Source: Sphingobacteriales bacterium
Lineage (GTDB): Bacteria > Bacteroidota > Bacteroidia > Chitinophagales > Chitinophagaceae
DNA length: 64,000 nucleotides
Reading direction: 5' to 3'
Assembly: GCA_026391525.1 (NCBI GenBank)
Contig: JAPLEF010000105.1
Coordinates: forward strand, 1-64,000
Shown here piece by piece: positions 45,565-60,943 of the stretch; position 1 is the stretch's first letter, and every line of letters starts with the position of its first letter. The notes under the pieces are model-generated. The model made no database searches, was not told the origin of the DNA, and saw only the letters and a list, made by a program, of their open reading frames with translations. A program made the position numbers and the translations under genes.

Positions 45565-46287
45565 TTGATGCAAAAATTACCAATGCCTGCCAGAACCTAC
45601 AGGCATATTTTCTTTGATCTCGATCATACCCTATGGGATTTTGATAGCAATGCCAAAAGCGCACTGAACGATCTTTTTCTTTCTTTCAACCTGAAAGAAC
45701 GGGTAACCACTGATTTTGAAGATTTTTACAATCATTACCTTCATCATAACAAGATATTGTGGAACCGTTTTCAGAAAGGCTTTATTACCGCTGAAGAGCT
45801 GAAGTGGAAAAGGATGTGGCGCACCTTGCTGGAATACAAAATTGGCGACGAAAAACTGGCCCGATCTCTGAGTGCTTCATTCATGGAAGTGCTCCCTACT
45901 AAAACGGCTGTATTCCCCCATACTATGGAAATACTTACTTACCTGCAGGTTAAATCGTATGTACTGCACCTCATTACTAACGGTTTTGAACAGACGCAAT
46001 GGAAAAAAATCCGCAATAGCGGAATCGACAAATATTTCACTGAAGTAATCACTTCCGAAGCAAGCAACAGCATGAAGCCCGAACCCCAGATTTTTACCTA
46101 CGCTTTACAAAAGTCTGGCGCGAAACTAGATGAATCGATCATGATAGGTGATAATCTTGAAGCCGATATCCAGGGTGCTATGAACGCTGGCATGGATAAC
46201 ATTTTTGTGAATCACACCCAAGCCATAACTGAACTCAACCCTACGTTTACCGTAACACATCTTAATCAACTGGAAAACATATTCTAA
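45565..46287 (+). CDS. YjjG-family HAD nucleotidase
   Basis: FFDLDHTLWDFDSNAKSAL; HAD motifs LITNGFEQTQ and MIGDNLEADIQGA. Confidence 0.9.
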   Translation: MMQKLPMPARTYRHIFFDLDHTLWDFDSNAKSALNDLFLSFNLKERVTTDFEDFYNHYLHHNKILWNRFQKGFITAEELKWKRMWRTLLEYKIGDEKLARSLSASFMEVLPTKTAVFPHTMEILTYLQVKSYVLHLITNGFEQTQWKKIRNSGIDKYFTEVITSEASNSMKPEPQIFTYALQKSGAKLDESIMIGDNLEADIQGAMNAGMDNIFVNHTQAITELNPTFTVTHLNQLENIF

Positions 46288-46506
46288 TACCGATTGGACA
46301 AACAATATAGTCCAATGTCGGCTATCGCCTCATTGTACTATTTGTTTGATACCATCGGCATTTATACCGATTGGACAAACAATATAGTCCAATATCGGCT
46401 ATCGCCTCATTGTACTATTTGTTTGATACCATCGGCATATACTCCCGAAAGCATTCGGGGAATAAGATTTATAAAATATTGGCATATTATATAAATCACA
46501 TTGGTA
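46288..46506. repeat. Structured intergenic repeat, copy A, with a tandem duplication of its 77-bp hairpin module
   Basis: Near-identical to 60804..60943; units 46288-46364 and 46365-46441 differ by a few bases; contains nested inverted repeats. Confidence 0.92.
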
Positions 46507-46540
46507 TAAAAAAACCTCCCAATCGGGAGGCAGATTTTTT
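46507..46540 (-). terminator. Rho-independent terminator, probably for the 54-aa small ORF
   Basis: Minus strand CCTCCC-GATT-GGGAGG followed by TTTTTTT. Confidence 0.78.
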
Positions 46541-60803: not shown

Positions 60804-60943
60804 TACCGATTAGACAAACAATATAGTCCAATATCGGCTATCGCCTCATTGTACTATTTGTTTGATACCATCGGCATTTACTCCCGAAAGCATTCGGGAT
60901 AAGATTTATAAAATATTGGCATATTATATAAATCACATTGGTA
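60804..60943. repeat. Structured intergenic repeat, copy B
   Basis: ~140 bp, near-identical to 46365..46506. Confidence 0.92.

Follow-up and report, generated by a model that had tools for sequence, protein, structure and literature searches.

BrickBuilt and MITE464/PgRS of Porphyromonas gingivalis are MITEs with IS5-like ends that are present in about 10–20 copies (PMC4596501), and the CIR elements carry a GANTC motif (PMC2229807). A REP is defined as a 20–40 bp palindrome with a GTAG or CGTC tag (PMC3733652). For the IS1031 group of IS5, a TNA target with a 3-bp duplication is the stated rule, and the one end quoted for the group begins with GAACC (PMC12016507). The element analysed here is multi-copy, dispersed and without a transposase gene. 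It is 118–238 bp long with ends that read TACC...GGTA, which sets it apart from a REP as defined above, and it is very probably a non-autonomous DNA transposon, that is, a MITE. No published name for the family was found, and the six stretches of its sequence that were searched for were not found printed in the literature searched.

In the window (the whole stretch of DNA that was analysed, 64,000 nucleotides), the element occupies 219 bp, from 46288 to 46506, and its first base lies directly 3′ of the TAA stop codon of a yjjG-like ORF (45565–46287), as an initial annotation of the sequence had stated. The general plan of the element is a hairpin 1 made by a 77-bp unit that can be repeated, an optional middle palindrome and a hairpin 2 (Table 1). 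The tandem duplication of the 77-bp module claimed in the initial annotation was borne out, as the two units are 97% identical and differ at only 2 of 77 positions, and the palindrome of the middle module and the AT-rich hairpin were present as described there. The second copy in the window has a single hairpin-1 unit. The 219-bp element sits between the yjjG-like gene and the terminator-like hairpin of that gene (CCTCCCAATCGGGAGG...TTTTTT). The two flanking TAA triplets are the copies of the target duplication, so that the target site coincides with the stop codon of the yjjG-like gene. When the one-unit form (46365–46506) was folded as RNA, its fold was far better than those of shuffled sequences on both strands (z −5.0 for the + strand and −7.1 for the − strand), and none of 200 shuffles folded as well.

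Table 1. Positions of the element copies and their parts in the window
Feature	Position	Strand	Basis
Target duplication of 3 bp (TAA), left copy; also serves the yjjG-like gene as stop codon	46285..46287	+	Sequence; statistics of TNA duplication
Hairpin-1 unit, copy 1: left terminal inverted repeat and its own inverted copy	46288..46364	+	Unit comparison, fold, cross-genome covariation
Hairpin-1 unit, copy 2 (tandem)	46365..46441	+	Unit comparison; analysis of array variants
Optional middle module with the palindrome CCCGAAAGCATTCGGG	46442..46462	+	Comparison of element forms
Hairpin 2 and right terminal inverted repeat (TACCAATGTGATTTATATAATATGCCAATAT on the − strand)	46463..46506	+	Fold, end comparison, covariation
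Target duplication of 3 bp (TAA), right copy	46507..46509	+	Sequence; statistics of TNA duplication
Second element, 140 bp, with one hairpin-1 unit; TAA before it, an extra GGTA and then TAA after it	60804..60943	+	DNA search, sequence

The middle module is missing from the 119-bp form of the element and is substituted in the 127-bp form. Its palindrome CCCGAWAGCWWTCGGG lies at 46444–46459 and 60883–60898, and was also observed within hairpins of relatives of the element in another genome, G059 (L190 and L209), and outside the element in a congener, G007 (L042). Unlike CCCGAWAGCWWTCGGG, none of five control palindromes of similar composition occurred in the same loci read. The palindrome may represent a small repeat of its own, nested within the element.

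The left end (TACCGATTGGACAAACAATATAGTCCAATAT) and the right end (TACCAATGTGATTTATATAATATGCCAATAT) are ungapped inverted repeats of each other, identical at 20 of 31 positions, and 6 of 100,000 shuffles were as similar. The terminal inversion reported in the initial annotation is thus present, but it is an imperfect repeat of 31 bp and not the weak one described there. The outer arms form the imperfect terminal inverted repeats of about 31 bp, which read TACCRATnnGA...ATAnnCCAAT. In the 77-bp unit, the left end is joined to an inverted copy of itself, and the inner end of the unit is TGCC, not TACC, in most of the sequences read; in the right hairpin, an inverted copy comes first, which many elements have in shortened or altered form, and the right end comes after it. 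The terminal-repeat pattern of the ends is TNATACCRATNNGANNNANANNATANNCCAATAT. The degenerate end pattern gave 181 matches in the genome of the window (G000), 8 in G059, 10 in G431 and 5 in G432, with no match in G666, while the reversed control pattern gave 0 matches in every genome scanned (G000, G059, G431, G432 and G666).

The genome of the window comprises 188 contigs and 2.85 Mb, and its gene content and the named carriers of the element point to Bacteroidota. The results showed an element end or unit at 84 places among the matches listed, after merging within 350 bp and pooling of two DNA searches, two pattern searches and one unit beside a RAYT gene; with 58 matches in one search and 52 in another, the many dispersed copies anticipated for a mobile element were found. 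Because some elements are split over two contigs and possibly counted twice, the elements number roughly 70–80 rather than 84. The right end together with a TWA flank gave 31+29 matches in this genome. The catalogue of 69 extracted sites, 64 of them in G000, contained forms of about 119, 127 and 140–142 bp as well as forms with at least two units, some of the units being partial. Copies are present in both orientations, most of them between genes and some interrupting genes, and by a crude ORF rule the neighbouring gene pairs were convergent in 16 cases, divergent in 9 and co-directional in 22. A search of 35 other species of the genus yielded no full copy (up to 14 candidates scored per genome), and two of these species had only partial matches of 29–35 bp. 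No copies were found in viral contigs searched with one pattern, in plasmids, or in phages searched with the G666 relative as query. The 70–80 copies, absent from congeners, represent a burst in one species, and this burst probably accounts for part of the fragmentation of the assembly.

Identical 3-mers flank 45 of the 55 G000 copies that have both ends (TTA in 24, TAA in 19, TGA in 1 and TAT in 1). When left and right flanks were re-paired in 20,000 trials, the mean number of identical flanks was 22.9 and the maximum was 38. No duplication longer than 3 bp was seen among the 55 copies. The constant target duplication that the initial annotation had looked for is therefore TNA, and the 10 copies with unequal 3-bp flanks are old copies or have small indels. 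When the element was removed together with one trinucleotide, several reading frames were found to cross the insertion points, some of them clear genes. A two-unit element on contig C103 has divided a pyruvate-kinase-like gene, in which the N-terminal part ends at position 74 of the Pfam PK domain and the C-terminal part starts at position 78; this ORF is uninterrupted, with 488–505 codons, in the congeners G002, G024 and G952. Together with the lack of a full copy in the 35 congeneric species, these three intact genes provide the empty sites in relatives that had been sought. At C100, the element lies between the SAM-like part and the catalytic part of a tyrosine integrase gene, and at C89 (L019) two elements, of 187 and 238 bp, lie within one gene with a DUF4476 domain.

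In comparison with the IS1031 group, the 3-bp TNA duplication was found, whereas the ends of the element begin with TACC and not with GAACC as in the one quoted end, and no resident IS5-type transposase was found. G000 contains one DDE_Tnp_1 gene, presumably IS1634-like, without matching ends, and DDE_Tnp_1_2 had no match in this genome. No autonomous partner with the same ends was found in the carriers by means of DDE_Tnp_1 (G000, G059, G431 and G432), DDE_Tnp_1_2 and one end pattern, the G000 assembly being fragmented; the terminal-repeat matches read in G059, G431 and G432 were all short elements or remnants. We propose that the mobilizing enzyme would act in trans and would most likely be a DDE transposase that chooses TNA targets as the IS1031 group (IS5) does, and its assignment as an IS5-like DDE enzyme is offered tentatively, as a possibility. 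The enzyme would recognize the terminal inverted repeats of about 31 bp by an outer box, TACCRAT, and an inner box, ATAnnCCAAT, and would cut at TACC...GGTA, upon which the element would enter a TNA site and 3 bp would be duplicated. With each half built as a foldback of an outer arm and its inverted copy, both halves fold into hairpins when single-stranded. Once the element is inserted, its left hairpin unit can be multiplied in tandem there, as exemplified by the window copy. It is also conceivable, although unlikely, that the mover is an enzyme other than a classical IS transposase with matching ends, such as a transposase that is domesticated or unlinked and that recognizes the conserved double hairpin, with the hairpin unit as the recognition module and tandem multiplication changing its activity.

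Alternatively, the element might be a palindrome of the REP/REPIN type that owes its spread to a RAYT (Y1 HUH) enzyme recognizing the hairpins in single-stranded form. Y1 genes were found in all four carriers searched (G000, G059, G431 and G432), a unit adjoins the 5′ end of a RAYT gene in G000 (C163; L111 1–89), an element in G431 adjoins the 5′ end of a RAYT-like pseudogene (L095 7080–7700) in the same relative orientation as at C163, and the hairpins are conserved by compensatory changes. However, many related RAYT genes carry other palindromes upstream, for example GTTGTTGGTG...CACCAACAAC, showing that the palindrome of the element is not cognate with the neighbouring RAYT gene; furthermore, the other Y1 genes retrieved had no element within a distance of about 1.5 kb, and the two element ends are inverted repeats of each other. 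To our knowledge, Y1 enzymes duplicate no target, and 3-bp target duplications such as those present here are not a product of Y1 chemistry. Given this and the other palindromes at related RAYT genes, the RAYT-adjoining elements are read as insertions, and spread by a RAYT enzyme is very unlikely. A REP/RAYT origin was rejected on these two grounds, the duplicated target and the other palindromes, and of the MITE- or REP-like family suggested in the initial annotation the MITE part was retained and the REP part was not. In addition, GC-rich palindromes (GGTGAAAAACACC..GGCGGCGG and similar) were observed 3′ of the RAYT gene at C163 (L111 660–1000); they look like the gene's own REPs.

In 11 complete two-unit arrays, the two units of an array resembled each other more closely than re-paired ones did (equal similarity in 27 of 20,000 re-pairings), and in some arrays private variants were common to both units, for example TTGGGCAAAC at one site. 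This likeness and these common variants fit a duplication at the site after insertion, for which slippage would be the cause. The tandem unit could also be mainly an artefact of short-read assembly, as many contigs end within the element, several of them exactly 21 bp into the preceding unit, and partial units are present within arrays. Nevertheless, the window copy is one of several at independent sites in which a complete two-unit array lies between unique flanks and a target duplication, and the units of an array differ from each other yet have private variants in common, so that an artefact of this kind is highly improbable. The assembly may be the source of the partial units and of the contig ends that lie inside units. 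In the arrays at L050, L002, L019, L070 and L100, units are cut at variable points and the restart is always at unit position 1–4; such cuts would stem either from assembly joins or from adjacent deletions.

Elements built on the same plan were found, in most cases between TWA flanks, in G059, a genome of the same order but another family, in G431, a Ferruginibacter MAG (JABFQZ), and in G432, a Flavobacteriales MAG (PFUQ), and a shorter, diverged form was found in G666, a genome of the same class. In hairpin 1 (12 sequences), 88.4% of the cells were standard pairs, compared to 29–46% paired in a control with slid partners, and 21 double-change cells were counted against 6.9 in shuffles; in hairpin 2 (9 sequences), 84.7% were paired and 7 double-change cells were counted against 2.6 in shuffles, although the shuffles overstate the significance of the covariation because the structures were derived from the same alignments and several rows are related. 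Such covariation can mean selection on the hairpin or correction of a quasipalindrome by template switching, and the data fit both. In our reading, the hairpins would serve transposition or the fate of transcripts and would not be a matter of quasipalindrome correction, and the family is suited to asking whether the hairpin structure of a MITE is selected or is kept by template-switch correction.

The covariation in both hairpins, the fold z of −5 to −7 and the intergenic position of most copies also speak for another reading, a regulatory element or structured non-coding RNA that was amplified because of its function and whose hairpins are under selection as RNA, for example as an mRNA stabilizer or an attenuator; in other bacteria, MITE transcripts are reported to influence the fate of mRNAs (PMC2229807). 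However, the copies lie in both orientations, some interrupt genes, most have a target duplication and congeners lack them; moreover, quasipalindrome correction can also yield covariation. Amplification for an RNA function is accordingly judged quite unlikely. A known RNA family was rejected: Rfam gave no family at the gathering score, and its sole match, below threshold, adjoins the element and is not inside it.

The element family, as a non-autonomous transposon, is a further MITE variant and not a new kind of system. It resembles REP/REPIN and RAYT systems in having hairpins that are mostly intergenic and in the presence of RAYT genes, but the element is longer and has terminal inverted repeats and target duplications. 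With ERIC, RUP and Correia/NEMIS it has in common a length of 100–200 bp, TA termini, terminal repeats, target duplications and, as predicted for the present element, stem-loop transcripts; these elements, however, fold by pairing of the 5′ and 3′ ends (PMC2229807), whereas two separate hairpins are formed here. RUP inserts at TA (PMC2229807), in contrast to the 3-bp TNA duplication seen here, and its reported insertion in IS transposase genes (PMC2229807) parallels the insertions of the element beside RAYT genes. CIR, of Caulobacter and Brucella, likewise has two long inverted repeats that make two arms joined by a linker (PMC2229807), and two independent hairpin arms with a linker were found here, but CIR is listed as lacking terminal inverted repeats, and its target duplication as uncertain (PMC2229807), whereas both features are clear in the present element. 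BrickBuilt and MITE464/PgRS are also Bacteroidota MITEs with internal direct tandem repeats that are intergenic and without a transposase remnant (PMC4596501). They differ in having ends that begin with GAGACC and repeats of 23 or 41 nt (PMC4596501), compared to TACC ends and a 77-bp hairpin unit, and the target duplications of BrickBuilt are of variable length (PMC4596501) instead of TNA. The repeats of BrickBuilt and MITE464/PgRS had no matches outside P. gingivalis (PMC4596501), whereas the present element and its relatives occur in five genomes. It is a MITE family that spans several Bacteroidota-like genomes, with double hairpins kept by compensatory changes.
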